Part shown: positions 1-19,000 of the stretch, in pieces
Numbering within the stretch: position 1 is the first letter of the stretch
Layout: each line of letters starts with the position of its first letter
Translations under genes and position numbers: made by a program
Notes under the pieces: model-generated
What the model saw: only the letters and a program-made list of their open reading frames with translations
What the model was told of the DNA's origin: nothing
The model's database searches: none
NCBI GenBank assembly: GCA_031178045.1
Contig: JAPSJT010000003.1
Coordinates: 1 to 49,823 of the forward strand
Direction of reading: 5' to 3'
Length of the DNA: 49,823 bases
Source: Agromyces sp.
Lineage (GTDB): Bacteria; Actinomycetota; Actinomycetes; Actinomycetales; Microbacteriaceae

Positions 1-611
1 GCGTTCGGCACGACGACATCGGGGGCGAGCCAGCGCCAGGAGCCCGGATCGTGGGCGTCGACGAGCACGTGGTGCGGTCGGGGCATCCGCTCGAACACGC
101 GCCGGAAGGCCGCGGTGAGCAGCTCGGAGCCGTAGTCGCTCACGACGAGCGCCGAGGATTCACCGAGTGCGGCGGCGGCCGTTTCGGCGAGGGCACGCTG
201 CAACGGCATCCGGTCGGCGGGTTCGAGTACGACCGGCGGCTCGTCGACTCGGACGAGGACCTGCTCGTCGGCGACGATCCGGGTCTTCGTCACGGTGCGC
301 ACGATCGGTGAGCGCACGACGCCCGTCACGTCGACCCCTGCGTCGGCGAGGAGCTCGAGCAGGCGGTCGCCGGCGGCATCCGTGCCGATGACGGCGGCGA
401 GGCGGACCTCGGCCCCGAGCGCGCGCAGGTTCATCGCGGTGTTCGCCGCACCGCCCGGGGCGTCGTGCTGCGTCGAGAGCTCGACGATCGGCGCGGGCGC
501 CTCGCGGCTCAGGCGGCGGCTACCGCCCATCCACCAGCGGTCGAGGATCGCATCTCCGACGACCGCCACGACCGGCCTGCCCTGACGGATGCGATGCGGA
601 AGCTCTTCCAT
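1..611 (-). CDS. PfkB-family sugar kinase, RfaE1/HldE kinase-domain-like (C-terminus beyond left window edge)
   Basis: Reverse translation reads MEELPHRIRQGRPVVAVVGDAILDRWWMGGSRRLSREAPAPIVELSTQHDAPGGAANTAMNLRALGAEVRLAAVIG..., with the RfaE1-type GD..LD and PGGAAN motifs. ATG at 611 (alternative GTG at 620). Not in the ORF track because it runs off the edge. Confidence 0.85.
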   Translation of the reverse strand, partial: MEELPHRIRQGRPVVAVVGDAILDRWWMGGSRRLSREAPAPIVELSTQHDAPGGAANTAMNLRALGAEVRLAAVIGTDAAGDRLLELLADAGVDVTGVVRSPIVRTVTKTRIVADEQVLVRVDEPPVVLEPADRMPLQRALAETAAAALGESSALVVSDYGSELLTAAFRRVFERMPRPHHVLVDAHDPGSWRWLAPDVVVPN

Positions 612-669
612 TCGCTGCACACCGGGACGGTACCCACCGCGCGGCCGGGATATGCATCATCTCGTGAAG

Positions 670-695
670 GTTTCGTCGTCGCGCCGATGGGGGAT
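670..695 (+). promoter_or_regulatory. Candidate second SigF-like promoter (GTTT-N16-GGGGAT) upstream of GT9
   Basis: gGTTTcgtcgtcgcgccgatgGGGGATgagg, one mismatch from GGGTAT, 37 nt before the GT9 ATG at 733. Confidence 0.35.
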
Positions 696-732
696 GAGGT
701 GAGGGACGTTCCCGCCGAAGCCTGGAGGACCG

Positions 733-1902
733 ATGCCGGCATTCGCGCCCCTGGAGAAGCCCTTCGACGACGTGCGTCGCATCGCGGTGCTCCGCGGCGG
801 CGGAATCGGCGACCTGCTCTTCGCGATCCCCGCGATCGAGGCGCTCGCGGCCGCGTATCCGGCGGCCGAGCTGGTACTGCTCGGCAGTCCGGTCCATGTC
901 GAGCTGCTCCGTGCACGCCCGTCGCCGGTCTCGCGGATCGAGGTGCTGCCGATCGCCCGCGGCATCCGGGAGGTTCCGGGGAAGCGACCGGACGAGCGGC
1001 TGATCGCCGCGTTCCGAGATCGGGTGAGGCGGTTCGGATCGATCGACCTCGGGGTGCAACTCCACGGCGGGGGTCGGAACTCGAATCCGTTCCTGCTGGC
1101 GCTCGAACCCAGGCACTCGGTGGGGGCGGCGACCGAGGATGCCGACCGGCTGGAGCGGACGCTCCGCTACGTCTACTACCAGCACGAGGTGGTGCGCGGC
1201 CTGGAGGTGGCGGGTCTCGCCGGGGCGGAACCGGTCGTCCTCGAACCGCGGATCACCGTCACGGCGGCGGAGCACCGCGCGATCGCAGGTCGGCTTCCCC
1301 ACGATGGGTCGCCCCTCGCCGTCGTGCACCCGGGGGCGACCGATCCCAGGCGTCGCTGGCCGGTGGAGCGGTTCGCGACGGTCATCGCCGCGCTGCTCGA
1401 CGACGGGGCATCCGTGGCGCTTATCGGCGATGCCACCGATCTCGACCTTCACGCACGCCTCACGCGGGAGGTTCGAGGGCTCCGGCCGGCTGCTGCCGGT
1501 CGGGTGACCGGCCTTGCCGGGGTGCTCGCGCTCGGCGAGACCGCCGCGCTGCTCGCCGCCGCCGATGTCGTCGTCGCGAACGACAGCGGGCCACGACACC
1601 TCGCTCAAGCGGTCGGTGCCCCGACCGTCGGCGTCTTCTGGTTCGGCAACGTCGTGAACGCCGCGCCCTTCGGGCGCGGAAGCCACCGGGTGCACCTCTC
1701 GTTCACGGTGCGGTGCCCCGTGTGCGCCGCCGACGTCACCCAGGTGGGATGGACGGCGGAGCGCTGCGAGCACGACGTCTCGTTCGTCGACGAGGTGTCG
1801 GCCGAGCCGGTGGTCGAGGACGCCCTCGAGCTCATGGCCATGAGCTCTCTTCGGAGTGGCTCACCACGAGCTCCCGGATCTCGCAGCCGTCGGGCTGGCT
1901 GA
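733..1902 (+). CDS. Glycosyltransferase family 9 (heptosyltransferase-like)
   Basis: IAVLRGGGIGDLLFAIPAIEAL N-terminus, VVHPGATDPRRRWP, NDSGPRHLAQAVGAPTVGVFW; GGAGG RBS before the ATG. Confidence 0.88.
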   Translation: MPAFAPLEKPFDDVRRIAVLRGGGIGDLLFAIPAIEALAAAYPAAELVLLGSPVHVELLRARPSPVSRIEVLPIARGIREVPGKRPDERLIAAFRDRVRRFGSIDLGVQLHGGGRNSNPFLLALEPRHSVGAATEDADRLERTLRYVYYQHEVVRGLEVAGLAGAEPVVLEPRITVTAAEHRAIAGRLPHDGSPLAVVHPGATDPRRRWPVERFATVIAALLDDGASVALIGDATDLDLHARLTREVRGLRPAAAGRVTGLAGVLALGETAALLAAADVVVANDSGPRHLAQAVGAPTVGVFWFGNVVNAAPFGRGSHRVHLSFTVRCPVCAADVTQVGWTAERCEHDVSFVDEVSAEPVVEDALELMAMSSLRSGSPRAPGSRSRRAG

Positions 1903-2569
1903 GGGCGAACACGACGGCCTGCGCGACGTGCTCGGGGGAGTTGAGCTTCGCGTCGGCGCCGGGGCGGTACTGCTCGTCCCGGTCGTCGAAGAAGTGGGTG
2001 CTCATGCCGCCCGGGATGAGGGTGGTCACTCCGACCCGTCCCTTCGTCTCGGCCGCGAGCGCCCGTGAGAATCCCAGCACGCCGAACTTCGAGGCGCAGT
2101 AGGCCGTGGCATCCGACACGCCCTTGACGGCGAGCGTCGATGCGACCGTGACGACCCGGCCGCCGGATGCCTCGAGGTGGGGCAGCGCCGCGCGCACGGC
2201 CGCGGCCGTGCCGAGCAGGTTCACTCGGATGACGCGCTCCCACTCCGTCCCGTCGACGTCCTCGAGCCGGCCGCAGCGGTCGATGCCCGCCGCGGTGACC
2301 ACGCCGTCGAGGCCGCCGTGCTCGTCGGCGAGACGTGCGATGAGGGACTCGAGTGCCCTCGTCTCGCTCACGTCGGCCTGATGCGTCTCATGGGCCGGTT
2401 CGTCGGGGACCGTGCGATCGAGCACGATGGGCGTGCCGCCTGCTCGGGCGACGGCGTCGGCGATCGCCGCTCCGAGGCCGGACGCTCCGCCGGTGATGAT
2501 GATCCGTCCGATCCGGCTGCGCGCCGGGTCGGCGATGCCGGAGGGAACGGTCGTGGTCGGTTCGGTCAT
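1832..2569 (-). CDS. Classical SDR family oxidoreductase
   Basis: TGGASGLG cofactor motif and YCASK active-site motif (YxxxK); 12 nt downstream of the hldE-like gene. Confidence 0.9.
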   Translation of the reverse strand: MTEPTTTVPSGIADPARSRIGRIIITGGASGLGAAIADAVARAGGTPIVLDRTVPDEPAHETHQADVSETRALESLIARLADEHGGLDGVVTAAGIDRCGRLEDVDGTEWERVIRVNLLGTAAAVRAALPHLEASGGRVVTVASTLAVKGVSDATAYCASKFGVLGFSRALAAETKGRVGVTTLIPGGMSTHFFDDRDEQYRPGADAKLNSPEHVAQAVVFALSQPDGCEIRELVVSHSEESSWP

Positions 2570-2581
2570 GACGGCGTCCTT

Positions 2582-3943
2582 TCAACTCACTGCGGCGAGT
2601 GCTGCCGCGAGGGCGGAGGTGGAACGGGCTGGATGATGCGGCACGGTCACGACCCGGCCGCCGGTCTCGGCGAGCGCGAGCGTCTCGGGCAGGTCGTCGG
2701 CGCGGTAGTCGCCGCCCTTCACCCAGAGGTCGGGTCGGAGCCGGCGGACTGCCTCGGTGGGAGTGTCCTCGTCGAAGACGAGCACGGCGTCGACGCACTC
2801 GAGCGCGAGCAGGAGGTCGATCCGGTCCGCCTCGGAGATGATCGGGCGGGCGGGTCCCTTCAGGCGGCGAACCGACTCGTCGGAGTTCAGGCAGACGATG
2901 AGGCAGTCGCCGAGCGAGCGCGCCGCCTGCAGGGTGCGGACGTGGCCCGCGTGCAGGAGGTCGAAGCATCCGCCGGTCGCGACGACCGTGCCGCCCGCGG
3001 CGCGGGTGTGCGCGGCGACCGCCACGGCACCGGCCGCGTGCCCCGGGATCGGCGCGGGCGGGGCGGGGAGCTCGAGGGATGCCACGCCGCCCGCCCTGAG
3101 GAACGCACTCGCGTCGTAGACCCCTCGGCGGACGGCATCGCGCACCTCCTCGCCGGTCGCGAGCGCGACCGCGGCCGAGGCCGCGAGCCGGTCTCCTGCG
3201 CCGCACGGATCGGCTGCGCTCACGTGCTGCGCCGGGATCACCACGGGCAGGGCGCCGTCGGCGCAGACCACGGCCCCGTCGCCGCCGAGGGTGACCGCGA
3301 TCGTCTCGGCGCGCCATCGTGCGCCGAGGATGCGCGCGGCATCGATCGCCTCGCCGAGGCCGCCGAGCGGTGCGCCGCTGAGCGCAGCGGCCTCCGATCG
3401 ATTCGGTGTCGCGAGGGTCACGCCGCCGACGGGTGCCGCACCTCGGACGTGAGGGTCCCAGACGATGGGAATGGCGCCGGCCCGGCGCTCGATCGCCGCC
3501 CGGACGAGCTCGTTCGCGAGCATGCCCCGCCCGTAGTCGGAGGCGACGACGGCGTCGGCCCGCTCGATGGCATCGAGCTGCGCGGGATCGACGTCGACCG
3601 GAGCGACCCCACCACCGCCCTCGTCGAGCCGTGCGATCGCGTGACCGTCCGCGCGTATCCGGGTCTTGACGGAAGTCGGTCCCGCGAGCTGCGCTTCGAC
3701 GAGGTGGATTCCCGGCAGTGCGTCGCGGAGGCGCTGGGCGGCGGCATCCCGGCCGAGCGCCGTCACGAGGGTCACGTCCACGCCGTCGCGAGCGAGCATC
3801 GTGGCGACGAGACCGGCGCCGCCCGCGCGATCGGCGGATCCCGTGATGTCGACCACGGGGACCGGCGCATCGGGACTCAGCCGCACGGCCGCGCCGGTGA
3901 CATCCACGTCGAGGAGGCAGTCGCCGATCACCGTCACCCTCAC
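2582..3943 (-). CDS. hldE: Bifunctional HldE-like protein: PfkB heptose-7-phosphate kinase plus RfaE2-type nucleotidyltransferase
   Basis: Kinase half VTVIGDCLLDVDVTG...DPCGAGDRLAA; nucleotidyltransferase half VVATGGCFDLLHAGHVRTLQAARSLGDCLIVCLNSD...WVKGGDY. GTG start at 3943 overlaps the gmhA stop. Confidence 0.87.
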   Translation of the reverse strand: MRVTVIGDCLLDVDVTGAAVRLSPDAPVPVVDITGSADRAGGAGLVATMLARDGVDVTLVTALGRDAAAQRLRDALPGIHLVEAQLAGPTSVKTRIRADGHAIARLDEGGGGVAPVDVDPAQLDAIERADAVVASDYGRGMLANELVRAAIERRAGAIPIVWDPHVRGAAPVGGVTLATPNRSEAAALSGAPLGGLGEAIDAARILGARWRAETIAVTLGGDGAVVCADGALPVVIPAQHVSAADPCGAGDRLAASAAVALATGEEVRDAVRRGVYDASAFLRAGGVASLELPAPPAPIPGHAAGAVAVAAHTRAAGGTVVATGGCFDLLHAGHVRTLQAARSLGDCLIVCLNSDESVRRLKGPARPIISEADRIDLLLALECVDAVLVFDEDTPTEAVRRLRPDLWVKGGDYRADDLPETLALAETGGRVVTVPHHPARSTSALAAALAAVS

Positions 3944-4569
3944 CGTCCCACCTCCTCGGCGCCGACCAGCGCGTCGAAGGCGACGCACAGGGCGTGCACC
4001 GCGACGAGCTCCGCCTCCTGCACGTTCGACGCCGCGCCCGGCAGCGCGATCGCGTCGTCGCAGGCACTCGCCAGCGGGTTCGGCGCCGGCCCCGTGATCG
4101 CCCAGCTCACCGCGCCCGACTCGGCGGCGGCTCGGGCGGCGGAGATCAGGTTGGCGCTCGCTCCGCTCGTCGAGAGCAGCAGCACGATGTCGCCGTGACG
4201 CGCGTGCGCGCGCACCTGTCTCGCGAAGATCTCATGGAAGCCGTAGTCGTTGCCGATGGCCGTGACCGCTGAGGAATCGGTGTTCAGGGCGATCGCCGAA
4301 TACGGCCGGCGCTCGCTGCAGAAGCGTCCGACGAACTCCGCGGCGAGGTGTTGCGCCTCGGCGGCCGATCCGCCGTTGCCCGCGACGAGCAGCCTGCCCC
4401 CGGCTTCGAGCCGCTCCGCGAGCCGGATGGCCCAGCCGGCCAGCCGGGCCGACTCGAGTTCGAGCGCGTGGAGCACCGGCGCGACGTTCCGCACGTGCTC
4501 GGCGACGGCGTGCACCGCCCACTCCGTCGCGACGGAGCGGGCCCGCTGCTTCGTGTCGTGCAGGGTCAT
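3940..4569 (-). CDS. gmhA: SIS-domain D-sedoheptulose-7-phosphate isomerase
   Basis: LLVAGNGGSAAEAQHLAAEFVGRF...ALNTDSSAVTAIGNDYGFHEIFARQV...LLLSTSGASANLISA, typical GmhA motifs. Confidence 0.9.
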   Translation of the reverse strand: MTLHDTKQRARSVATEWAVHAVAEHVRNVAPVLHALELESARLAGWAIRLAERLEAGGRLLVAGNGGSAAEAQHLAAEFVGRFCSERRPYSAIALNTDSSAVTAIGNDYGFHEIFARQVRAHARHGDIVLLLSTSGASANLISAARAAAESGAVSWAITGPAPNPLASACDDAIALPGAASNVQEAELVAVHALCVAFDALVGAEEVGR

Positions 4570-5810
4570 CGTGCCACTCCCTTCGCACGTCGGTTCATCG
4601 AGGGTGCTCCGCTCACGGCGGCGATCGTGGCGCGGTAGCTGCGCTCGCTGTCGGCGGCGATGCGGCTCCACGCGTAGCGGGCGGCCCGGCGACGGCCATT
4701 GGCGCCGTACTGCCGGCGGGTCGGCTCGTCGAGGAGCAGCGTGCGGATCGCCTCCGCGACGGCCGTGGCATCCCGTGGCGGGACGTGGCGCCCGGTGACG
4801 CCGTCGACGACGCTGTCGATGAGTCCCCCGACGGATGACGCGACCACGGGCACGCCGCACGCCATCGCCTCGAGCGGCACGATGCCGAAGGGCTCGTACC
4901 ACGGAGCGCACACCACGACGTCGGCCGAGCGGTACAGCTCGGGGAGCACCGCCTGCGGCAGCTGTCCGCGGAGCTCGATCCGATCCGGGGCGGCGGAGTG
5001 CCGTGCGATCTCCGCGAGGCGCTCGAGCTCGGGGTCGCGTCCGTCGCTCGTGTCGCCGCCTCCGACGATGACGAGCTCGACGTCGAGACCTTCGTCGGCC
5101 AAGGCGGCGACCGCCTCGATCGCCGTGCCGACGCCCTTGCGTGGCACGAGGCGTCCGACGCTGAGGACCCGGTGGCGGCGCGTCCGCTCGTCCCGTGGCC
5201 CCTGGGGAGTGAAATGGGCGAGATCCACGCCGCAGGGGATCACCGTGATGTTGCGAGAGGGCACGCCGAGCTTCTTCAGCTCGAACGCCTCGTCGGAACA
5301 GGTGGCGATCACGCCGGCGGCGCGGCGACCCACGTCGGGCTCGAGCCATTCTCGCTCGGCCGGACTCGTGTCGGCCGCGCCCTGATGACGCCGCTTCACG
5401 ACGCCGAGGGCGTGGAAGGTGTGCACGACGGGGGGTGGCGCCGCGAGCGTCGACACCGCGTCGAGGGCGGCGACGCCCGACATCCAGAAATGGCTGTGCA
5501 CGATGTCGGGCTCCCAGCCGCTCCAGTCGGCGGCCATTCCGGCGGCGAGGGCCGGCATGGCGGGAAGCATGTCGTCCTTCGGTACGTGCCGGGCGGGGCC
5601 CGCCGTCACGTGCACGACCTCGACGCCGGTCGCGAGCGGGACGCGTTCGGGCGCGTCGGGATCGTCACGGCGCGTGTAGACGCGAACCTCGTGGCCGCGT
5701 CGGGCGAGCTCGGTCGACAGCGCCGCGACGTGCACGTTCTGCCCGCCGGCATCCACACCACCGAGTGCGGCGAGCGGGCTCGCGTGTTCGGAGACCATGG
5801 CGATGCGCAT
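4566..5810 (-). CDS. Glycosyltransferase family 4 (MshA-like)
   Basis: MRIAMVSEHASPLAALGGVDAGGQNVHVAALSTELARRGHEV...SVGRLVPRKG...EPFGIVPLEAMACGVPVVASSVGG. Confidence 0.88.
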   Translation of the reverse strand: MRIAMVSEHASPLAALGGVDAGGQNVHVAALSTELARRGHEVRVYTRRDDPDAPERVPLATGVEVVHVTAGPARHVPKDDMLPAMPALAAGMAADWSGWEPDIVHSHFWMSGVAALDAVSTLAAPPPVVHTFHALGVVKRRHQGAADTSPAEREWLEPDVGRRAAGVIATCSDEAFELKKLGVPSRNITVIPCGVDLAHFTPQGPRDERTRRHRVLSVGRLVPRKGVGTAIEAVAALADEGLDVELVIVGGGDTSDGRDPELERLAEIARHSAAPDRIELRGQLPQAVLPELYRSADVVVCAPWYEPFGIVPLEAMACGVPVVASSVGGLIDSVVDGVTGRHVPPRDATAVAEAIRTLLLDEPTRRQYGANGRRRAARYAWSRIAADSERSYRATIAAVSGAPSMNRRAKGVAR

Positions 5811-5812
5811 CG

Positions 5813-6859
5813 TCACTCCTTCCATCCATGGGATTCGACGCCCGCCGTGCGGGCGGCCACCGCCGCGGCGGTGATCGGGCGGCCCTTCCGCCGGCGACGC
5901 TCGACGAGGTCGATGGCGAGCTCGTCCCAGTCCCGCAGGAAGCGGTCGAGGCCGTACCGCTCGACGACCGTTTCGCGTGCCGCGAGACCGAGCCGGGTTG
6001 CAGCGTCGCGGTCCTCCAGCAGCACCCGCGTCGCGGCGACGAGCTCGTCGATGTTCGTGGAGATGAAGCCCGCGCCCGGCGGCACGGCGCGCGCGGCCTC
6101 CGTCGCCTGCACCACCACGACCGGCACGCCGAGGTGCATGGTCTCGAGCAGGGTGAGCCCGAGCGACGTCCACCTTGCGAGGTGCAGGTACAGCCGGCGC
6201 TCGGCGATCGCCGCGTGCAGCTCCTTCGTGGCGAGCTCGCCGACGGGGGAGACCTGCACCGGGTCGAGGCCGAGCGCGGCCGGGAGCTCCGCGACGCCCA
6301 TGCCGAAGAGGTCGATGCCGCCCGCCGCAGCGAAGTCCGGCAGCAGGTCGCTGCCGACCATCCGCGAGCGGCGCACGGGTTCGTTCGCGACGAACGCGCT
6401 GCGCCCGATGCGGCCCGAATAGCGGTATCCGGGGTCTGGGATGCCGTGTTCGATGACGACGGTGGGCGCGTCGCCGTTGTCCCAGAACAGCCGGTTGAAG
6501 TGGGTGACGTGCACGATCGGGATGTCGGTGCGGTCGGCGAACGGATGCCGCGTGGTGACGGCAGCGGGCTTCGGTGTGTTGTGCTCGAGGAAGACGGCGG
6601 GAACCTCGGAGCCGAGTCGACGCCCGAGCATCGCCTCCGCGCGCTCGAACTCCTCGAGTCGCTGCAGGACGACGAGGTCGACGGGCTCGCCGCGCATGGT
6701 CGCCGGATCGATCTCGATCGCGCTCGTCGGCCAGTCGCGGCCGCCGCGCCCCAGCCCCCACGGCCCCCGCTCGGGAAGCGTCGGGAGGAGGTAGTCGTGC
6801 CCGCCCCGCACGAACGCGTCGGTCCAGCCGCCGTGCACATGCCAGAGCAGGATCCTCAC
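5813..6859 (-). CDS. Glycosyltransferase (GT-B like)
   Basis: MRILLWHVHGGWTDAFVRGGHDYLLP...FLEHNTPK...VVIEHGIPDPGYRYSG...LHLARWTSLGLTLLETMHLGVPVVVV. Confidence 0.8.
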   Translation of the reverse strand: MRILLWHVHGGWTDAFVRGGHDYLLPTLPERGPWGLGRGGRDWPTSAIEIDPATMRGEPVDLVVLQRLEEFERAEAMLGRRLGSEVPAVFLEHNTPKPAAVTTRHPFADRTDIPIVHVTHFNRLFWDNGDAPTVVIEHGIPDPGYRYSGRIGRSAFVANEPVRRSRMVGSDLLPDFAAAGGIDLFGMGVAELPAALGLDPVQVSPVGELATKELHAAIAERRLYLHLARWTSLGLTLLETMHLGVPVVVVQATEAARAVPPGAGFISTNIDELVAATRVLLEDRDAATRLGLAARETVVERYGLDRFLRDWDELAIDLVERRRRKGRPITAAAVAARTAGVESHGWKE

Positions 6860-7929
6860 GCCGGCACCGCCTCACGGGCAGCGAGTGTTCCGTCGTCCGA
6901 GTCGCCCCGCTCGGTCACGCGGCGGATCGCGCGAACGGCATCGACGACATCGCGAGCCTCGATCTCGCCGAGACACGGATGCCCCGGGATCGGACACTCC
7001 CTGGCCCTCGTGCCCGCGCACGCGATGTCGCGGCGCCCGAGCAGCACGGAGGCCACGCCGAACGGCCCCCAGCAGCGTTCGTCGACGACGGGGGCGAAGA
7101 GGCTCACGACGGGAGTGCCCACGGCTGCCGCGAGGTGGGCCGTCCCCGTGTTGCCGACGACGACGGCATCCGCGCGTGCGAGCACGCCGGCGAGCTCGGG
7201 GAGGGTCGTCCGTCCTCCGAGGTCGAGTGCGCGCTCGCCGGCCACCCGAGCGGTGAGACCGCGCTCCGACGGGGAGCCGGTCACGACGACGCGGAAGCCC
7301 GCCTGGGCGAGGGCGTGCACGAATTCGACGTGCCGCTCGAGCGGCGCCGCCCGCGCGGGCACCGCTGCCCCGGGATGGACCACCACGTACGGGTTCCGCC
7401 CGACGAGCGGTGCGGGGTCGGCGGCCCCGCTCACCGCAAGTCGCCCGGCGTCGCCGGGCGGGAGCGCGAAGCCCGCGGCAGCGGCGACGGTCAGGGCTCG
7501 AGTGACCTCGGACTGCGACTCGGGGAAGTCCTCGCCTGGTCGCAGTCGCACGTCGAGGAGACTCCCCGGGTAGTCGCCGGAGGCCCCGGTGATCCGGGGC
7601 ACTCCCGCCAGCCGGAGCAGCAGCGCGAGCGGAAGCGGACTCTGGTGGAACGACGTGAGGATGACGGCCTCGGACGCGTCCACCTCCGCGAGGATGCGCT
7701 CGAGCTCCGCGACCGAGGCCGGGGTGACCGACCGCGCCGGATTGCCGATCCACGGGCAGTCCCACTCGTGCACCCGGCGGACGCCGGGCAGCATCCGCCC
7801 GGCGGGGGCTCCGGTCGGGCTGCAGAGCAGGTGCACGGAGGCGGTGGCGGCGACGGCACGCACGGCAGGGCCGCAGAGCAGCACGTCCCCGACGCTGTCG
7901 AGGCGGGCCACGAGCACCCGCCGGCTCAC
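6856..7929 (-). CDS. Glycosyltransferase family 9
   Basis: VLVARLDSVGDVLLCGPAVRAVA, VVHPGAAVPARAAP, GNTGTAHLAAAVGTPVVSLFAPV. Confidence 0.88.
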   Translation of the reverse strand: MSRRVLVARLDSVGDVLLCGPAVRAVAATASVHLLCSPTGAPAGRMLPGVRRVHEWDCPWIGNPARSVTPASVAELERILAEVDASEAVILTSFHQSPLPLALLLRLAGVPRITGASGDYPGSLLDVRLRPGEDFPESQSEVTRALTVAAAAGFALPPGDAGRLAVSGAADPAPLVGRNPYVVVHPGAAVPARAAPLERHVEFVHALAQAGFRVVVTGSPSERGLTARVAGERALDLGGRTTLPELAGVLARADAVVVGNTGTAHLAAAVGTPVVSLFAPVVDERCWGPFGVASVLLGRRDIACAGTRARECPIPGHPCLGEIEARDVVDAVRAIRRVTERGDSDDGTLAAREAVPA

Positions 7930-8474
7930 GATGCCGCTCCCGGCGCCGGCTCGAGCGCGAGTGCGAGACCGACCGCCTCGAGCACCGTGGTCGCGACGGC
8001 GGGGGCGCCGTCCACCTCCTCGCGCAGCGTCAGCGAGGTGGGGACGAGCACCGCTCGGCTTCCCGCGGCCGTGGCGGCGGCCACGTCAGCGCCGATGTCG
8101 CCGATCACGACGACGTCGGCGGGGTGCACCCCGAGCGCCTGCGCGGCGTCGATGACGAGGCCGGGCGCCGGCTTGCGGCATCCGCACCCCTCGCCCGGCC
8201 CGTGCGGGCAGACCGCCCAGACGTCGAACGGACCGAGCAGCTCATCGACGCGGGCGTTGACCGCTGCGAGCTCCTCGACCGTCACGAGTCCGCGAGCGAT
8301 GCCCGACTGGTTCGTGACGACGCCGATCGCGATGTCCCGATCGCGCAACACCGAGAGCGCCTCGCGGACCGTCGGCATCGGTTCGACGAGGGCCGGGTCG
8401 GTGTTGTAGGGCACGTCCCTCACGAGGGTGCCGTCGCGGTCGAAGAGCACCGCGCGCGGGGATCGGATCGCCAT
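7926..8474 (-). CDS. gmhB: HAD-IIIA D-glycero-D-manno-heptose-1,7-bisphosphate 7-phosphatase
   Basis: VLFDRDGTLVRDVPYNTDPALVEPMP...GVVTNQSGIARG...CPHGPGEGCGCRKPAPGL...VVIGDIGADV; the Cys/His loop is typical of GmhB. Confidence 0.88.
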   Translation of the reverse strand: MAIRSPRAVLFDRDGTLVRDVPYNTDPALVEPMPTVREALSVLRDRDIAIGVVTNQSGIARGLVTVEELAAVNARVDELLGPFDVWAVCPHGPGEGCGCRKPAPGLVIDAAQALGVHPADVVVIGDIGADVAAATAAGSRAVLVPTSLTLREEVDGAPAVATTVLEAVGLALALEPAPGAAS

Positions 8475-8477
8475 ACC

Positions 8478-8509
8478 GAAGTGGATACCCACTTCTCCTG
8501 CTTCGAAAC
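8478..8509 (-). promoter_or_regulatory. Candidate SigF/SigB-type promoter of the heptose operon (GTTT-N15-GGGTAT), -10 embedded in an 18-nt inverted repeat
   Basis: Reverse strand reads cGTTTcgaagcaggagaagtGGGTATccacttcggtATG(gmhB). The inverted repeat GAAGTGG-atac-CCACTTC spans 8478-8495. Confidence 0.6.
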
Positions 8510-8558
8510 GTCGCCCCCGACCCTTCTCCCGCGGAGTACGATCTGCGAATCTGGGGAG

Positions 8559-9512
8559 ATGCCAGGCATGGACCCGCGTCCGACGATGCTCGTCCTGCGC
8601 GCCCTGAAGCTCGGTGACCTCCTGGTGGCGGTGCCCGCGCTCACGGCACTTCGCCGACACTGGCCCGGTCATCGCATCGTGCTCGCCACATCGGGGTGGC
8701 TCGCGCCGATCGTCGGGCTTCTCGGGAGTGTCGACGTGCTGCTGCCGGCGCCGGGACTGTCCCGTCCGCTCGAGATCCCGGCCGGGTCCGTGGACATCGC
8801 GGTGAACCTGCACGGACGCGGGCCCGAGAGCGGCAGGCTGCTCGACGCGGTCCGGCCCCACCGGCTCATTGCGCACGCTCCCGACGCCCCCGACGGTCCC
8901 GAGTGGGTCGACGGGCTGCTCGAGCGGGAACGCTGGGCCCGGCTCGTGCGCTCCGCGGGCGCGACGGCGGATGCCTCGGAGCTCGCGATCGCCGTTCCGG
9001 CCTCGCCGGCCGTGGTGGCCGGTGCGGCGGTGGTGCACGTCGGGGCGTTCTACGGCGCACGGCGCTGGCCGGCCGAGCGCTTCGCCGAGGTCGCTCGGGC
9101 GCTCACGGCTCGCGGCGAGCGAGTGGTCGTCACAGCCGGGGCCGAGGAGCGCGATCGCGCGCTCGACGTGGCCGCACGCGCGGCGCTTCCCGAGTCGGCA
9201 GTGCTCGCGGGGCGGCTCGATCTCGCGGAGTTCGCCGCCGTGATCGCGGCCGCCCGAGTGGTCGTGAGCGCCGACACCGGAGCAGCGCATCTCGCCTCCG
9301 CCTTCGGCATCCCGTCGGTCGTCATCTTCGGCCCCGCGCCGCCCGAGGAATGGGGACCGCCCGAGCGGGGTCCGCACATCGTGCTGACGGATGCCTCGGT
9401 CCGGCGGGGCGACGTCTTCGCGGACGAGCCCGATCCGGCCCTTCTGGCGGTGAGCACCGCCGATGTACTGGCCTCGCTCGACCGCCTGCCGCTGGGTCTC
9501 CAGGCCGGCTAG
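8559..9512 (+). CDS. Glycosyltransferase family 9
   Basis: MLVLRALKLGDLLVAVPALTALRRHWPGHRIVLAT...VVHVGAFYGARRWP...SADTGAAHLASAFGIPSVVIFGPAPPEEWGPP. Confidence 0.88.
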   Translation: MPGMDPRPTMLVLRALKLGDLLVAVPALTALRRHWPGHRIVLATSGWLAPIVGLLGSVDVLLPAPGLSRPLEIPAGSVDIAVNLHGRGPESGRLLDAVRPHRLIAHAPDAPDGPEWVDGLLERERWARLVRSAGATADASELAIAVPASPAVVAGAAVVHVGAFYGARRWPAERFAEVARALTARGERVVVTAGAEERDRALDVAARAALPESAVLAGRLDLAEFAAVIAAARVVVSADTGAAHLASAFGIPSVVIFGPAPPEEWGPPERGPHIVLTDASVRRGDVFADEPDPALLAVSTADVLASLDRLPLGLQAG

Positions 9513-10363
9513 GCGGTCCGGCGCGCCATCTGCGCGATGGTGCGCTCTTCGTCGCGACGATCCTCGAGGAGCCCCTCGAGGCGGCAGTGCAGCCGACCGA
9601 GGATCGCCGAGAGGAGCCGCGAGACCTGCATCTGCGTCACGCCGATCTCGTCGGCGATCTCGCGTTGCGTGCGTTCCTCGATGAATCGGAGGTACACGAT
9701 GCGCCGTTCCCGGGGAGTGAGCGTCGCGAGCGCGACGCGAAGGGAGAGGCGCAGGTCGGCGAGCTCCAGTCGCTGGTCGTTGTCGCCGATCGTCGCTCCG
9801 ATCGAGGTGTCGTCGTCGCCGACGCCCGCGTCGAGCGAGACGGGCTCCATGCTCGTCCTCGTGCCGACCGCCTCGGCGACGCCGGCCGGCGAGGTGTGGA
9901 GATACCCTGCGAGGTCCGCGACCGTCGGCTCCCGCCGCAGCGACTGCGCGAGGTCGGGGATGGCGCTCGAGACCGCCTGCCGGAGCTCCTGCACGCGCCT
10001 CGGCGGACGGATGAACCATCCGTTGTCCCGGAGGTAGCGTTTGATCTCGCCCGAGATCGTCGGCACGGCGTACGAGAGGAAGTTGTCACTGCGAACGGGA
10101 TCGAATCGGCGCACGGCATGCACGAGTCCGATGCATCCGACCTGGCGGAGGTCGCTCTGGTCCCGGTAGCCCGATGCGAGGTGGTGCACGAGTCCGTCGA
10201 CGAGATCGAGGTGGCGCAGGACGATGGCATCCTCGGCGACCCGCCTCGGGGCGCCGCGCAACGGTCGCAGCTCTCGGAATCGCGCCCTCGTCCACTGCTG
10301 ACGCGCGTCCCATTCCGCTCGTCGGCGGTCGTGCGCGGTGTGGGTCGTCGCGTCGTCGTCCAT
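9509..10363 (-). CDS. RNA polymerase sigma factor, SigF/SigB (group 3) family
   Basis: LVDGLVHHLASGYRDQSDLRQVGCIGLVHAVRRFDP...FLSYAVPTISGEIKRYLRDNGWFIRPPRRVQEL...LTPRERRIVYLRFIEERTQREIADEIGVTQMQVSRLL. Confidence 0.92.
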   Translation of the reverse strand: MDDDATTHTAHDRRRAEWDARQQWTRARFRELRPLRGAPRRVAEDAIVLRHLDLVDGLVHHLASGYRDQSDLRQVGCIGLVHAVRRFDPVRSDNFLSYAVPTISGEIKRYLRDNGWFIRPPRRVQELRQAVSSAIPDLAQSLRREPTVADLAGYLHTSPAGVAEAVGTRTSMEPVSLDAGVGDDDTSIGATIGDNDQRLELADLRLSLRVALATLTPRERRIVYLRFIEERTQREIADEIGVTQMQVSRLLSAILGRLHCRLEGLLEDRRDEERTIAQMARRTA

Positions 10364-10464
10364 GTCGAGCCTCCCTCCGGTGGGTCGGAACGCCGAGGGG
10401 CGCCGCTTCTCCGGAGTGAAGCACCGAGGCACAAGTCTCGAAAGGGAATTGCAACCGAGGAGGA

Positions 10465-10482
10465 GAAGCGTTATAACGCTTC
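10465..10482. promoter_or_regulatory. 18-bp perfect palindrome GAAGCGTTATAACGCTTC (operator or terminator)
   Basis: Read directly; lies between the hypothetical ORF stop (10491) and the sigma factor start (10363). Confidence 0.5.
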
Positions 10483-10490
10483 CCCCACGC

Positions 10491-11093
10491 TCACCCGTTC
10501 GCCGGCAGTGGATCGAACACGAGCGGCGGATGCGAGATCCTCGTGCTGAACCACGACCAGGACTCGCCGTCGGTCTGCTCGATCGCCGCCCAGGCACCGG
10601 CGGCGGCGGGGACGTTCCGCAGGATGACCGTGACCACTCGCTTCCCGCTGAAGCGGATGGCGCCGGGCGCATCGACCGTGCCACCGCCCGCGAAGCCCGT
10701 CGGCCGGAACTCGGACCGCGTGAACGCCTCGACCGCGAACGCGAAGACGTACGTGCCGACTCCGGTGATGCCGTACGCGGCCGGGGCGAAGTGCACCGAC
10801 AACGCCGGGTTGCGAGTGGGCGACTCGCGTCGGTCGAACCCCGCGTACGGCGTCGCGGCATCCGTCTGCAGGATCGTCGGCCGGATGAGGGTGAGGTTCG
10901 TGCGTCCCTTGCCCACGGTCCGAGTGGGCGCGAGCGTCTCGATCGGCGCCCAGAAGATCGGGCCGGTGACGAGATCGCCGACGCGGTACTTGGCCACCCA
11001 GTCCGCGGCGCTGAGGTCCGGCTCGAAGTCGGTGATGCTGACGCTGCGGTCATCGAACGCCTCGCCGAATGGGGATTCCTCGTCATTGAACAT
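10491..11093 (-). CDS. Hypothetical protein (200 aa, no recognised domain)
   Basis: Coherent ORF MFNDEESPFGEAFDDRSVSITDFEPDLSAADWVAKYRVGDLVTGPIFW...; unidentified family. Confidence 0.7.
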   Translation of the reverse strand: MFNDEESPFGEAFDDRSVSITDFEPDLSAADWVAKYRVGDLVTGPIFWAPIETLAPTRTVGKGRTNLTLIRPTILQTDAATPYAGFDRRESPTRNPALSVHFAPAAYGITGVGTYVFAFAVEAFTRSEFRPTGFAGGGTVDAPGAIRFSGKRVVTVILRNVPAAAGAWAAIEQTDGESWSWFSTRISHPPLVFDPLPANG

Positions 11094-11238
11094 GAGCGAA
11101 ACTCTAGAACTGTGACGGATGCTCCGCATCAGGGATGGCCCCGAACACCGACGCCCGGCGGCGTCGCGGGCGCGACCCGGGGCATCCGCCGACGACTACA
11201 GTTGAAGGGTTCGTTTCACGAGACAGGAGTGGATCCAG

Positions 11239-13176
11239 GTGGCTGACGGCTTCGAGCTCTTCACCGACCGGTCCGTTGTCGCCATGCGCGTCAACGGCGA
11301 GCTCAAGGACCTCGCCGCCACGGTGACGGACGACGACGTCGTCGAACCCGTGACGATCGACTCGCCCGACGGACTCGCGATCCTCCGGCACTCGACCGCG
11401 CACGTGCTCGCGCAGGCCGTCCAGGCCGTGAACCCCGAGGCGAAGCTCGGCATCGGCCCGCCCGTCACCGACGGCTTCTACTACGACTTCGATGTCGCCG
11501 AGCCGTTCACCCCCGAGAACCTGAAGGCGCTCGACAAGGAGATGGCCCGGATCGTGCGCGCCGGCCAGCGCTTCGTCCGGCGCGTCGTCTCCGATGACGA
11601 CGCCCGGGTGGAGCTCGCCGACGAGCCGTACAAGCTCGAGCTCATCGGCCTGAAGGGCGGTGCGGGCGAAAGCGACGAGAACGAGTCGGTCGAGGTCGGC
11701 GGCGCCGAGCTCACGATCTACGACAACGTCGATCCGAAGACCGGCGAGACCGTCTGGAAAGACCTCTGCCGCGGCCCGCACCTTCCGAACACGCGCATGA
11801 TCGGCAATGGCTGGGCGCTCTCGCGCGTGGCCGCCGCATACTGGCGCGGCTCGGAGAAGAACCCGCAGCTCCAGCGCATCTACGGCACCGCATGGCCGTC
11901 GAAAGACGAGCTGCGCGCATATCAGCACCGGCTCGAGGAGGCCGCTCGTCGCGATCATCGCAAGCTCGGCGCCGAGCTCGACCTCTTCTCCTTCCCCGAG
12001 GAGATCGGCTCGGGCCTGCCCGTCTTCCACCCCAAGGGCGGCATCATCAAGCGCGAGATGGAGGACTACGTCCGTCGTCGTCACATCGAGGAGGGCTTCC
12101 AGTACGTCTCGACCCCGCACATCACGAAGTCCCACGTCTTCGAGCTGTCGGGCCACCTGCCGTACTACAAGGACACGATGTTCCCGCCCATGGAGCTCGA
12201 GAACAGCGAGTACTACCTCAAGGCGATGAACTGCCCCATGCAGAACCTCATCTTCCGTTCGCGCGGCCGCTCGTACCGCGAGCTGCCGCTGCGGTTCTTC
12301 GAGTTCGGCACCGTCTACCGCTACGAGAAGTCGGGCGTCGTGCAGGGCCTCACGCGGGTGCGCGGACTCACGCAGGACGACTCGCACAGCTACGTCACCC
12401 CCGAGCAGGCACCGGCCGAGATCAAGCACCTGCTCGACTTCGTGCTCGGGCTGCTCCGCGACTTCGGCCTCGACGACTTCTACCTCGAGCTCTCGACGCG
12501 CGACGCGAACTCCGACAAGTTCAAGGGCACCGACGAGCAGTGGGAGGTCGCGACGAACGTACTGCGTGAGGTCGCCGAGGCGTCCGGCCTCGAGCTCGTG
12601 CCGGACCCCGGGGGCGCGGCCTTCTACGGGCCGAAGATCTCCGTGCAGGCGCGCGACGCGATCGGCCGCACCTGGCAGATGTCGACCATCCAGTACGACT
12701 TCAACCAGCCCGAGGGCTTCGGCCTCGAGTACACCGCGGCCGACGGCACCCACCAGCAGCCCGTGATGATCCACTCCGCGAAGTTCGGCTCGATCGAGCG
12801 CTTCTTCGGCGTGCTCATCGAGCACTACGCGGGTGCCTTCCCGGTGTGGCTCGCGCCCGTGCAGGTCGTCGGCATCCCCGTCGCCGACGAGTATGCCGAG
12901 TACCTCGGCGGCGTCGTCGACCAGTTGCGCCGGGCCGGCGTCCGGGCCGAGCTCGACACGAGCGACGACCGCATGCAGAAGAAGATCCGCACGCACACCA
13001 CCCAGAAGGTGCCGTTCCAGCTCATCGCCGGTGAGAACGACCGGGCGGGCGAGACGGTGAGCTTCCGCTTCCGCGACGGCAGCCAGGAGAACGGCGTCGC
13101 GATCGACGAGGCGGTTCGTCGCATCCGTGCCGCGATCGACGACCGCCGACAGGTCATCACGAGGGACGACCTCTGA
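11239..13176 (+). CDS. thrS: Threonine--tRNA ligase
   Basis: TGS domain, [73 protein letters not shown] start. Confidence 0.97.
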
Positions 13177-13177
13177 C

Positions 13178-13741
13178 GTGGGTGCCTACGAGGCCGACGA
13201 GTTCGACGGCATCCCGACGGATTCCGGCGCCGATCTCGCGGGCGTCCCCGACGCCTTCCAGCGGCTCTGGACGCCGCACCGGCTCGTCTACATCCAGCAC
13301 GGCCAGCAGCCCGACGAGCACACCTGTCCGTTCTGCCGCGCCCCCGAGTTGAGCGATGAGCAGTCGCTCATCGTCGCGCGCGGCCGGTTCGCCTTCGTGC
13401 TGCTGAACCTCTATCCCTACAACAGCGGGCACCTGCTCGTCTGTCCCTACCGCCACATCGCGACCTACGACGAGGCGTCGCCCGAGGAGGTCGCCGAGAT
13501 CGGCGAGCTCACCCAGATCGCGATGCGCGTCGTGAAGCGGGTCTCGAAGTGCGACGGGTTCAACATCGGCATGAATCAGGGGCGGATCGCCGGCGCCGGC
13601 ATCGCGGAGCACCTGCACCAGCACATCGTGCCGAGGTGGGCGCTCGACTCGAACTTCTTCCCGATCATCGCCGGAACGAAGGCGCTGCCCCGGCTGCTCG
13701 GCGAGGTCCGTCAGGAGATCGCCGAGGCGTGGCCCGTCTGA
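13178..13741 (+). CDS. HIT family protein
   Basis: CPFCRAPE...LLNLYPYNSGHLLVCPYRHI...FNIGMNQGRIAGAGIAEHLHQHIVPRW; HIT motif HLHQHIV; directly after thrS. Confidence 0.93.
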   Translation: MGAYEADEFDGIPTDSGADLAGVPDAFQRLWTPHRLVYIQHGQQPDEHTCPFCRAPELSDEQSLIVARGRFAFVLLNLYPYNSGHLLVCPYRHIATYDEASPEEVAEIGELTQIAMRVVKRVSKCDGFNIGMNQGRIAGAGIAEHLHQHIVPRWALDSNFFPIIAGTKALPRLLGEVRQEIAEAWPV

Positions 13742-13744
13742 CCC

Positions 13745-14596
13745 TCAGCGCACCTGGCGCACCGTGAACTGCATGCGCGGGTTCGCGTACGACTCCTGGG
13801 ATTCGACGAGCTGCAGCTCTCGCTCACCCGAGGCATGCGTTCGTTCGAGCAGGTCGAAGACGCTCGACGTCGTGCGGGCGAGGGCGTCAGCGGCGTCGCC
13901 GCTCGTCGTGTAGTGCGCGGTGAACAGCGCGGCGGTGACATCCCCCGAGCCGTTCGCCTTCAACGGGAGGAGCGGGGTCTGCACGATCCACGCCCCGGTG
14001 TCATCGACCGCGAGCATCTCGATGGTGCCCTCCTCGCGGTCGGGGCGCTCGACGCTCGTGACGAGCACGGTTCGCGGCCCGGTGGCGCGGATCAGCTCGA
14101 CGGACTCGAGGGTCGACTCGAGCGTGTCGGGCTCCGTGCCGGTGAGGAAGCCGAGCTCGAACTGATTCGGCGTGATGATGTCGGCCGCGGGCACGACTCG
14201 GTCGCGCAGCAGGATCGGGATCGCCGGCGCGACGAAGCATCCCGATTTCGCGTTGCCCATCACGGGATCGCACGCGTAGACCGCACGAGGATTCGCGGCC
14301 TTCACGCGAGCGACGGCATCGAGGATCACCTCGGCGATGCCCTCGCCGCCCTGGTAGCCCGAGAGCACGGCGTCGATCTGCGGGAACGCGCCGCGATCCT
14401 CGATGCCGGCGATCACCTCCCGAACGTCATCGGGGCTGATGAGCGGCCCGCGCCAGGCACCGTAACCGGTGTGGTTCGAGAAGTTCACGGTGTAGACGGG
14501 CAGCACCTCGACGCCGATCCGCTGGAGCGGGAAGACGGCAGCCGAGTTGCCGACGTGGCCGTACGCGACGGCGGACTGGATCGAGAGGATCTTCAC
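13745..14596 (-). CDS. pdxY: Pyridoxal kinase
   Basis: [50 protein letters not shown]...YQGG...DPVMGN...ANGSGDVTAALF. Confidence 0.93.
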   Translation of the reverse strand: MKILSIQSAVAYGHVGNSAAVFPLQRIGVEVLPVYTVNFSNHTGYGAWRGPLISPDDVREVIAGIEDRGAFPQIDAVLSGYQGGEGIAEVILDAVARVKAANPRAVYACDPVMGNAKSGCFVAPAIPILLRDRVVPAADIITPNQFELGFLTGTEPDTLESTLESVELIRATGPRTVLVTSVERPDREEGTIEMLAVDDTGAWIVQTPLLPLKANGSGDVTAALFTAHYTTSGDAADALARTTSSVFDLLERTHASGERELQLVESQESYANPRMQFTVRQVR

Positions 14597-15957
14597 CGTC
14601 CGATCATCCCATCCCCGGCGGTGACGAGCCGTCCACCCGCCGCGTGCACGGCAGCGGCGATGTCGCCGGCGAGCCGTTCGGCGTCGGCATCGCCGAGATC
14701 GTGCACCGTGAGCCGAAGCCGTCGCGCGGCCGGCGCATCGGCGAGGGCGAACTCGTCGCCGGCACGCGCGAGCCAGCCGCGTCGCATGAGCTGCTCCGAC
14801 ACGTCGCGCGCCGGTACCGGCAGTGCGACCCAGAGGTTGAGTCCGTCTCCGGCGGTCGCGGGCACGCCGAGCGCCGTCAGCCGCTCGGCGAAGGCGCGGT
14901 TCCGCGCCGCGTAGTGGGCGCCCGCCGCTTCGATGCGCGCGGCGACCTCGGGGTCGTCGACCAGCGCGAGCACGAGCCGCTGCAGGAGGTGGCTCACCCA
15001 GGTGGTTCCCGGGCTGAGCCGCATCGCGAGCCGCTCGGCGGTGTCGGGATCGGATGCGGTCACCGCGAGGCACATGTCGGGCCCCAGGAACTTCGACACC
15101 GAGCGCACGAGCGCCCAGCGCCGGTGCTCGGGTCCGATGAGCGAATGGAAGGGACGACGCGAGAGCATCGAGAAGTGATCGTCCTCGATGACGAGCACGT
15201 ACGGATGCGCCTGCAGCACGGCGCGCAGTTCGCGGGCGCGCCGCTCCGAGAGGCTCGCTCCGGTGGGGTTCTGCGCCCGCGGCGTGCAGACGACGGCGCG
15301 GACGCCCTGTTCGAGCGCGGAGCGCAGACCCTCCACGGTCATGCCCTCGTCGTCGACGGGGACCGGCACCGGCCGGTAGCCGCCCACGCGCACCGTGTGG
15401 ATGCTCGTCAGGAAGCAGGGGTCCTCGAGCGCCACGGCATCGTCGCGGACGAGCGCCAGCGCGAGGAGCCGCTCGACCGCGTCGGCCGCGCCGCTGGTGA
15501 CCGTCAGCCGGAGCTCGGTCGGGGCGAGATCCGCGCTCATCCAGGATCGGGCCCACTGCTCCAGTCCGGGATCGATCACCGGCTCCCCGTACAGCACGGG
15601 ACGGCCCGCCACTCTCGCGAGTGCGCGCGATGGGTCGGGGATGAGGTCGGGATCGGGGTTGCCCGTTGCGACGTCGCGCAGCACGCTGTCGGCCGCGAAT
15701 CCCTCCTGCGGGACCGAGGACCGATCGGCGACGTGCGTTCCGCCGCGGCCCCGTGTGACGACGACGCCCGCTTGCGTGAGCTGACGGTACGCCGCCACCG
15801 CAGTGTTGCGATTGATCCCCAGCGTCTCGGCGAGTGAGCGCACCGGGGGGAGCGGATCGCCCGGATCCAGGGCGCCACGCTCGATGAGCGCACGCACGCT
15901 GTCGGCGATGTCGGCGGCCGAGCGGCCGGAGATCTGGAGGGTCACGTCACGATCCAT
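14593..15957 (-). CDS. pdxR: PdxR-like MocR regulator (GntR wHTH plus aminotransferase class I domain)
   Basis: N-terminal GntR HTH ([43 protein letters not shown]), C-terminal fold-type I aminotransferase ([15 protein letters not shown]); overlaps pdxY and is divergent from pdxS. Confidence 0.88.
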
Positions 15958-15969
15958 GGTTGTTCCGAG

Positions 15970-16010
15970 TGTAGGACCGGTCCATGCTACCGTTTGGCCT
16001 AAGCCAATCA
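15970..16010. promoter_or_regulatory. Candidate PdxR operator in the divergent pdxR/pdxS intergenic region
   Basis: GGACCGGTCC palindrome at 15974-15983 and TTGGC-CTAA-GCCAA inverted repeat at 15994-16007. Confidence 0.5.
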
Positions 16011-16066
16011 ATTTCGTTGTTCGCCGTCCCCCGCGCGAGCGTCCGTCATCCTTTGGAGGAACCCCC

Positions 16067-16957
16067 ATGAGCACTGCCGAGACCGGCTCCAGCCGCGTGA
16101 AGCGCGGCCTCGCCGAGATGCTGAAGGGCGGCGTCATCATGGACGTCGTCACGCCCGAGCAGGCACGCATCGCCGAAGATGCCGGCGCGGTGGCGGTCAT
16201 GGCGCTCGAGCGGGTTCCCGCCGACATCCGCGCCCAGGGCGGAGTCGCCCGCATGAGCGACCCCGATCTCATCGAGGCGATCATCGCCGAGGTCTCCATC
16301 CCCGTCATGGCGAAGGCCCGCATCGGTCACTTCGTGGAGGCGCAGGTGCTGCAGGCGCTCGACGTGGACTACATCGACGAGTCCGAGGTGCTCTCGCCGG
16401 CCGACTACGTGAACCACATCGACAAGTGGGCCTTCAACACGCCCTTCGTCTGCGGAGCGACGAATCTCGGCGAAGCGCTGCGTCGCATCAACGAGGGCGC
16501 TGCGATGATCCGGTCGAAGGGGGAGGCCGGCACCGGCGACGTCTCGGAGGCGACGAAGCACATCCGCAAGATCACGAGCGAGATCAACATGCTCCGCTCG
16601 ATGACGAAGGACGAGCTCTACGTCGCCGCGAAGGAGCTGCAGGCGCCGTACGAGCTCGTCGCCGAGGTCGCCGAGACCGGCAAGCTGCCGGTCGTCCTCT
16701 TCACGGCGGGCGGCGTCGCGACGCCGGCGGATGCCGCGATGATGATGCAGCTCGGCGCCGACGGCGTGTTCGTGGGCTCGGGCATCTTCAAGTCCGGCAA
16801 TCCCCAGGCGCGCGCGGCCGCGGTCGTCAAGGCGACGACGTTCTACGACGACCCGTCGGTCATCGCCGATGTCTCTCGCGGGCTCGGCGAGGCGATGGTC
16901 GGCATCAACGTCGGCGACCTCGCGGCGCCGCACCGCCTCGCAGAGCGCGGCTGGTGA
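16067..16957 (+). CDS. pdxS: Pyridoxal 5'-phosphate synthase lyase subunit
   Basis: [56 protein letters not shown]... Confidence 0.97.
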
Positions 16958-17613
16958 ACACGAACCTCCGCAGCGAATCGCTCGGGCCCGCCGACGCGGC
17001 CTCGACCGGCCCACGAGTCGGCGTGCTCGCGCTCCAGGGGGATTTCCGCGAGCATGCGCGGGTGCTGTCGGGGCTCGGCGCCGACGTCTCGCTCGTGCGG
17101 CGGCCGAACGAGCTCGCCGCGCTCGACGGACTCGTGATCCCGGGGGGCGAGTCGACCGTCATGGACAAGCTCTCACGCGCCTACGGCCTCGCGGAGCCGC
17201 TCAAGGCCGCGATCGCCGACGGGCTCCCGGTGTACGGCACCTGTGCGGGGCTCATCATGCTCGCCGACACGCTGCTCGACGCGATCGCCGACCAGCAGAG
17301 TCTCGGAGGACTGGACGTGGTCGTGCGCCGCAACGCGTTCGGATCGCAGAACCAGTCCTTCGAGACCGACCTCGACGTTCCGGCCCTCGGCGGCGAGCCC
17401 GTGCACGCCGTCTTCATCCGTGGACCGGTCGTCGAGTCGGTCGGGCCGGCGGCGACGCCGCTGGCCTCGCTCGCCGACGGCCGCGTCGTCGCCGTCGAGC
17501 AGGGCAATCTGCTCGGCACGAGCTTCCACCCCGAGATCACGGGGGAGCACCGCTTCCACGAGTACTTCCTCGAGAAGGCGGGCCGGCGGGCCGCGGCGGC
17601 CCGGACGCCGTGA
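16954..17613 (+). CDS. pdxT: Pyridoxal 5'-phosphate synthase glutaminase subunit
   Basis: [17 protein letters not shown]...[14 protein letters not shown]...[10 protein letters not shown]...TSFHPEIT. Confidence 0.96.
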
Positions 17614-18140: not shown

Positions 18141-18232
18141 CGGCCTCGCCGGTCGGTGCGGTGGAGGGGCTGCAATAGAATGGCCTCGCGCGTACGCCGA
18201 GACCGCGTGCGCACGACCGATTCAGGAGACGC

Positions 18233-18991: not shown

Positions 18992-19000
18992 CCGATCGCC

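Follow-up and report, generated by a model that had tools for sequence, protein, structure and literature searches.

A Micrococcales form of the cwg cluster in an Agromyces genome, with a predicted nucleotide-heptose route and a candidate stress-sigma promoter

Gene content of the locus and its relation to the cwg operon

The window analyzed here, a single 49.8-kb contig (C182) of an Agromyces sp. assembly, carries at its first end, where position 1 is also the end of the contig, a group of predicted heptose-biosynthesis and glycosyltransferase (GT) genes. Judged from gene content and order, this locus represents the form taken by the cwg cluster in Micrococcales and is a variant of the named operon SCO6179-SCO6190 (cwgA-L) of Streptomyces coelicolor. 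A previous sequence-only reading of the same DNA had listed GmhA, an HldE-like fusion, GmhB, three GT9 proteins, and two further glycosyltransferases, which are GT4-type enzymes, and all of them were found close to where it had placed them (Table 1). On the minus strand, the seven genes running from gmhB to the SDR gene overlap or are separated by gaps of ≤12 nt, a spacing consistent with a single operon. A hydropathy scan gave 19-residue maxima of 1.0 to 1.9, the high values being read as Rossmann-core segments, which suggests that the cluster contains no membrane proteins.

Table 1. Features of the heptose-type locus and its sigma-factor neighbor (window coordinates)
Feature	Position	Strand	Evidence
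HldE-B, kinase (N-terminal) portion of a second HldE fusion, cut by the contig end	3..605	-	TIGR02198 E=3.8e-40, residues 12-192
GT9a, heptosyltransferase-family glycosyltransferase	733..1902	+	PF01075 E=3.1e-24
SDR-family oxidoreductase, classical YxxxK, not HldD	1832..2569	-	PF00106 E=1.5e-38
HldE-A, predicted heptose-7-phosphate kinase/heptose-1-phosphate nucleotidyltransferase fusion, cwgI counterpart	2582..3928	-	NF008454 E=1.9e-78; PfkB + CTP_transf_like
GmhA, predicted sedoheptulose-7-phosphate isomerase, cwgH	3940..4569	-	TIGR00441 E=5.8e-42; SIS_2 E=1.6e-22
GT4, MshA/sucrose-phosphate-synthase-like glycosyltransferase, cwgG	4566..5810	-	6kih E=1.7e-60; 3c4q MshA E=2.3e-54
GTx, divergent GT4-like (GT-B) glycosyltransferase, cwgF	5813..6859	-	PF00534 E=1.5e-8
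GT9b, heptosyltransferase-family glycosyltransferase, cwgE	6856..7929	-	PF01075 E=1.1e-21
GmhB, predicted heptose-1,7-bisphosphate 7-phosphatase, HAD-IIIA, cwgD	7926..8474	-	NF006506 E=2e-32
Candidate SigB/SigF-type promoter, GTTT-N15-GGGTAT, directly upstream of gmhB	8485..8509	-	pattern match
GT9c, heptosyltransferase-family glycosyltransferase, cwgJ	8559..9512	+	PF01075 E=1.3e-25
SigB/SigF/SigG-family sigma factor, probable regulator	9509..10363	-	TIGR02980 E=6.2e-65, 219 bits (cut-off 234)

The cwg operon of S. coelicolor, known since 2002, responds to sigma-E and vancomycin, and its predicted product is a cell-wall glycan (PMC6767563, PMC5839063); its cwgA gene is also induced by salt (PMC13011467). 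Its SCO6186 is described as a phosphoheptose isomerase and SCO6187 as a bifunctional synthase/transferase, with transferases on either side, the sigE-cseABC system has been reported as Streptomyces-specific, and a defined product of cwg was not reported in the literature found. The suggestion that the Agromyces locus is an undescribed system had to be dropped, since the cluster is a variant of this named operon (PMC6767563, PMC5839063) and heptose enzymes are already documented across bacteria (PMC11573728, PMC11461863). As far as the literature was searched, the new elements are the interpretation of the Micrococcales form as a heptose cluster, the stress-sigma promoter, the pairing of two HldE proteins, and the counterpart in Burkholderiales.

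For the comparison we used a complete 12-gene cwg-type operon on the Streptomyces plasmid NZ_CP071045.1 (positions 6796-19226), typed as mobilizable, with the order epimerase, carbamoyltransferase, GT, HAD, GT9, GTx, GT4, SIS/GmhA, HldE, GT9, GT, GT; its identity with the S. coelicolor cwg operon is taken from gene order and number on the plasmid together with the published annotation, rather than from the S. coelicolor sequence. The core order GmhB-GT9-GTx-GT4-GmhA-HldE-GT9 is kept in the window, except that GT9c is divergent and upstream, and the amino acid identities to the plasmid proteins are 63% (GmhA), 58% (GT9b), 55% (GmhB), 52% (GTx), 51% (GT4), 46% (HldE-A), and 45% (GT9c). Both versions also appear to be under stress control. 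Streptomyces and other actinomycete loci additionally hold carbamoyltransferase, nucleotide-sugar epimerase/dehydratase, and GT2 enzymes. The cwg operon has cwgA, cwgB (carbamoyltransferase), cwgC, cwgK, and cwgL, which the window version lacks, whereas the latter adds the SDR, GT9a, and a second HldE.

Heptose enzymes and the two HldE proteins

The genome conforms to what was expected of an actinobacterium devoid of lipopolysaccharide (LPS). In profile searches of the genome, LpxC and the Kdo-transferase N-domain were absent, while E. coli and other Gram-negative controls were positive, and HldD had no match over the cut-off, with sub-threshold SDR matches only. Because LpxC, Kdo transferase, and an above-threshold HldD are all missing, the locus is not one for LPS synthesis, and the proposed combination of a nucleoside diphosphate heptose (NDP-heptose) route and heptosyltransferase-like enzymes in an LPS-less host is borne out. 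The GmhA, HldE, GmhB, and GT9 families are those of the LPS inner-core pathway (GmhA-HldE-GmhB-HldD, WaaC/WaaF), which differs in its HldD step, its Kdo-lipid A context, and its Gram-negative setting.

All heptose-enzyme scores fall under the NCBIfam equivalog cut-offs, as for distant homologues, but the assignments are firm at the domain level, and the catalytic motifs are intact in the window and across relatives. For GmhA, the 15 PDB matches are all phosphoheptose isomerases or the related DiaA (best E=2.9e-36), and the QH...E and QE......H motifs are kept in 78/78 relatives. GmhB of the window has the DRDG and CPHGPGEGCGCRKP motifs, and the Cys/His motif preceding CRKP is found in all 62 relatives compared, while the GAGD motif of HldE-A is present in 83 of 84. 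The isomerase, kinase, phosphatase, and nucleotidyltransferase needed for NDP-heptose are all present with active-site motifs intact, so that an NDP-heptose supply route encoded in the locus is supported at the sequence level. The SDR, whose gene is conserved adjoining that of HldE-A in relatives and which keeps YxASK in 73 of 79, probably modifies a sugar.

The gene at the contig end had been taken for a second RfaE1-like kinase. The kinase domain is there, but it does not belong to a separate kinase, being the front of an HldE-B fusion cut by the end of the contig: relatives encode a kinase plus nucleotidyltransferase of ca. 500 amino acids (aa) at this position, and the fragment is 55% identical to the copy in the related locus L024. 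A search of the rest of the assembly did not recover the C-terminal half of HldE-B. One gene on contig C12 was considered as the missing half and rejected, as it is glycerol-phosphate-cytidylyltransferase-like and lies inside an unrelated polysaccharide cluster.

In a tree restricted to named HldE-A, HldE-B, and Gram-negative rows (long open reading frames in the wrong frame had formed a spurious clade), HldE-B groups with Gram-negative HldE (support 99/95) and HldE-A with Streptomyces CwgI. Since they branch with different groups, HldE-A and HldE-B are, on this phylogeny, old paralogues. They also differ in the nucleotidyltransferase motif. An arginine at its fifth position (R5) has been reported to permit CDP- and UDP-heptose synthesis in STTR5-type enzymes, with the motif (F/L)XXGRSTT (Tang et al. 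2024). HldE-A has R at the equivalent position in 69/75 readable members (HHPARSTS in the window), with STS or STT variants at the end and, as first residue, Y in most members and H in the window instead of F/L, whereas HldE-B has mostly H (31), R (17), or Q (6). The ADP-heptose supply originally proposed is better read as an NDP-heptose route, as HldE-A bears the residue linked to ADP/CDP/UDP promiscuity. Four loci (L065, L045, L113, and L041) have lost the nucleotidyltransferase domain of HldE-A while keeping a complete HldE-B, which suggests that both proteins serve one shared pathway and weakens the idea of a strict split by nucleotide between them.

Distribution, stress-type promoter, and Burkholderiales counterparts

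A comparison of neighborhoods across Microbacteriaceae, as the sequence-only reading had advised, recovered HldE matches (E≤1e-20) in 24 of 150 genomes, most of them with the same cluster and, as a rule, a pair of HldE fusions separated by a few kilobases. The best marker of the cluster is GTx, for which GTDB contigs hold at least 581 relatives and which occurs in 39 of the 397 genomes sampled across the phylum; the best 80 of these relatives include Arthrobacter, Agromyces, Clavibacter, Curtobacterium, Amycolatopsis, Saccharomonospora, Micromonospora, Streptomyces, Blastococcus, and Pseudonocardia. The order-level search listed six congeners, none of which matched, and the distribution is therefore patchy, but wide in Actinomycetota. 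The mobilizable Streptomyces plasmid may help explain this patchy spread. We also observed a lone GTx-like gene (45% identity) at 14001-14942 of the Clavibacter californiensis plasmid pCCa (L162), likewise typed as mobilizable, beside an aminoglycoside-phosphotransferase-family gene; an epimerase and a sigma-70 gene are also present there.

The Micrococcales order is GT9c, divergent from GmhB-GT9b-GTx-GT4-GmhA-HldE-A-SDR, followed by GT9a and by HldE-B, which is commonly adjoined by an aldehyde dehydrogenase (ALDH) and in some cases by a GT2. As dozens of loci share this gene order, a chance association is excluded. GT9a and HldE-B are directly adjacent in the window, without ALDH between them, as they are in Agromyces salentinus (L044), whose cluster also has the same sigma gene and thrS nearby.

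The pattern GTTTN(14-17)GGGTA, based on the established promoter consensus of actinobacterial SigF/SigB, has a single match in the window (0.05 expected), located ca. 11 nt before the start codon of gmhB. Among deduplicated related loci, GTTT-N15/16-GGG(T/A)A was found before gmhB in 26 of 52 (shuffle mean of 0.065 and maximum of 2) and before GT9a in 14 of 40 (shuffle mean of 0.06), with no match before the other eight gene classes tested (GT9c, HldE-A, SDR, GT4, ALDH, HldE-B, GT2, and SigB). The gmhB matches listed come from Micrococcales. A SigB-family gene lies ≤4.2 kb from gmhB in 23 of the 47 named loci with enough flank; as related loci share ancestry, neither the promoter nor the sigma-gene counts represent independent events. 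Pseudonocardial versions of the cluster are flanked by RsbW-like ATPase, STAS, and CBS proteins. The gmhB operon is apparently controlled by a general-stress sigma factor of the SigB/SigF type, and the consensus indicates that the neighboring sigma gene probably encodes this regulator. The promoter type differs from that of the cwg operon, which is induced through sigma-E, although sigma-E-like promoters were not found upstream of the Streptomyces operons with a simple pattern.

Outside Actinomycetota, the chromids of Burkholderia multivorans (L160, NZ_CP143553.1) and Paraburkholderia sprentiae (L202, NZ_CP017563.2) carry homologues of cwgA, B, C, D, E, F, G, J, and K/L. The identities for B. 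multivorans are 49% (UXS-like), 45% (carbamoyltransferase), 44% (GT4), and 37% (GTx); the P. sprentiae assignments were made from annotation and order, sequence comparison serving as a check for the UXS-like and GT2 genes. Unlike the window, these clusters have no GmhA or HldE alongside, and the species presumably take heptose from their own LPS supply. Both clusters have a PIG-L deacetylase, and in both an ABC exporter is fused to a response-regulator receiver domain (4210-6954 in L160 and 3655-6345 in L202, 56% identical to each other), an unusual domain combination. In the actinobacterial loci there was a single weak partial match to the fused transporter (L123), and the Burkholderiales protein is the sole hint of export. 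The B. multivorans cluster also has BON, DUF2795, and DUF892 genes, and a possible link of this cluster to the published lxa low-oxygen locus is a lead that comes from similarity in gene content.

Glycosyltransferases and possible destination of the product

The three GT9 proteins exceed the PF01075 cut-off, with no other GT9 in the genome, and the GD and DSGPRH motifs of GT9a are invariant (49/49). The AlphaFold model of GTx (pLDDT of 84.5) retrieved a generic GT-B/BshA-like match that is uninformative about the substrate. The best structural matches of GT4 are the cyanobacterial sucrose-phosphate synthase and MshA, with which it shares the fold, the catalytic residues, and part of the phosphate-binding residues. 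Following the residue roles in the MshA structure (donor and phosphate sites, MshA numbering), the family keeps the equivalents of N25, K78, H133, R154, R231, K236, E316, and E324, of which R231, K236, E316, E324, and the phosphate-site R154 are invariant in 94 sequences and K78 is found in 91. It departs from those enzymes in its location within a heptose cluster and in two phosphate contacts of MshA, Y110F (93/94) and T134A (94/94). The residues kept would allow a phosphorylated soluble starter.

We consider it reasonably likely that the Micrococcales form makes a stress-induced oligosaccharide that contains heptose and is most likely destined for the envelope or for export. Gene content, motifs, synteny, and the promoter motif come from the sequence, while enzyme activities, the sugar, sigma-specific regulation, and destination are deduced from them. 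The general-stress sigma factor, probably the product of the gene next door, would drive transcription of gmhB-hldE-SDR; heptose would be activated with ADP, and perhaps with CDP or UDP in the case of HldE-A; and up to three GT9 enzymes together with GT4 and GTx would assemble D,D-heptose into a short hetero-oligosaccharide, the L,D-epimer not being expected because no HldD is present. The product, most likely a glycoconjugate that is exported or belongs to the envelope, would help the cell to survive osmotic or envelope stress. Since the core has no lipid-linked or wall machinery, the envelope destination rests on the cwg literature and on the Burkholderiales exporter. Several observations weigh against this proposal: the core includes no flippase, polymerase, lipid-carrier primase, or wall ligase, the closest solved relatives of GT4 use small soluble phosphorylated acceptors, homologues of cwgA, B, C, K, and L are missing from the locus and a carbamoyltransferase C-domain from the genome, and the assembly is incomplete (2.94 Mb in 325 contigs, ca. 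90% complete).

The main alternative, rather unlikely in our opinion, is a soluble cytoplasmic heptosyl-oligosaccharide, a stress protectant or secondary metabolite, in which GT4 would start on inositol phosphate or a sugar phosphate and not on a lipid carrier. It is retained mainly because of the GT4 residues described above, and the lack of lipid-linked polysaccharide machinery, the stress promoter, and the salt induction of cwgA suit it as well. However, two of the MshA phosphate contacts are replaced in GT4, the Burkholderiales versions have a conserved ABC exporter, and the Streptomyces version belongs to an envelope-stress regulon. Heptosylation of a secreted or cytosolic protein by one or more of the GT9 enzymes, for which autotransporters provide a known non-LPS use of ADP-heptose (PMC11461863) and which would need no lipid-linked machinery, is improbable, given that at least five glycosyltransferases per cluster point to an oligosaccharide and that no conserved target protein accompanies them. 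Even less probable is a specialized-metabolite pathway like that of septacidin, made from ADP-heptose in Streptomyces (PMC11461863); the patchy distribution and the large actinomycete versions with carbamoyltransferase and sugar-modifying enzymes would fit, but scaffold-building enzymes are missing from the core, and a physiological role agrees better with the stress-sigma promoter and with an order strongly conserved across many families. That the GmhA, HldE, and GmhB homologues act on other sugars and form no heptose, as their sub-equivalog scores might allow, is the least credible option, with all steps of one pathway co-localized with heptosyltransferase-family enzymes, all 78 GmhA relatives keeping the H, E, Q, and H residues of the motifs, and Burkholderiales with their own LPS heptose carrying the same GT set minus GmhA and HldE.

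NDP-heptoses are potent ALPK1 agonists seen mainly as Gram-negative signals, and recent reviews call their non-LPS roles open. A conserved and apparently stress-regulated heptose cluster in many LPS-less actinobacteria, along with the tractable cwg operon of S. coelicolor, makes such a role testable, and the envelope or export oligosaccharide proposed here could supply a chemical identity for a cell-wall-stress operon known for so long. A wider proposal, which we put forward only tentatively, is that a stress-sigma-controlled, non-LPS heptose oligosaccharide system is common to actinobacteria and Burkholderiales and that the Micrococcales HldE proteins are split, one making ADP-heptose and the R5-type CDP- or UDP-heptose; if true, this division would be the first physiological role for the new nucleotide-heptoses.

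Two minor features were seen in the surroundings. Between the sigma gene and thrS, the window has an open reading frame of 212 aa (10491-11129, minus strand) that matches neither Pfam nor NCBIfam. A small DUF2795 gene is found repeatedly close to the cluster, at 3314-3508 in L024, in nine other Microbacteriaceae loci, and at 25918-26217 in the Burkholderia locus (L160).

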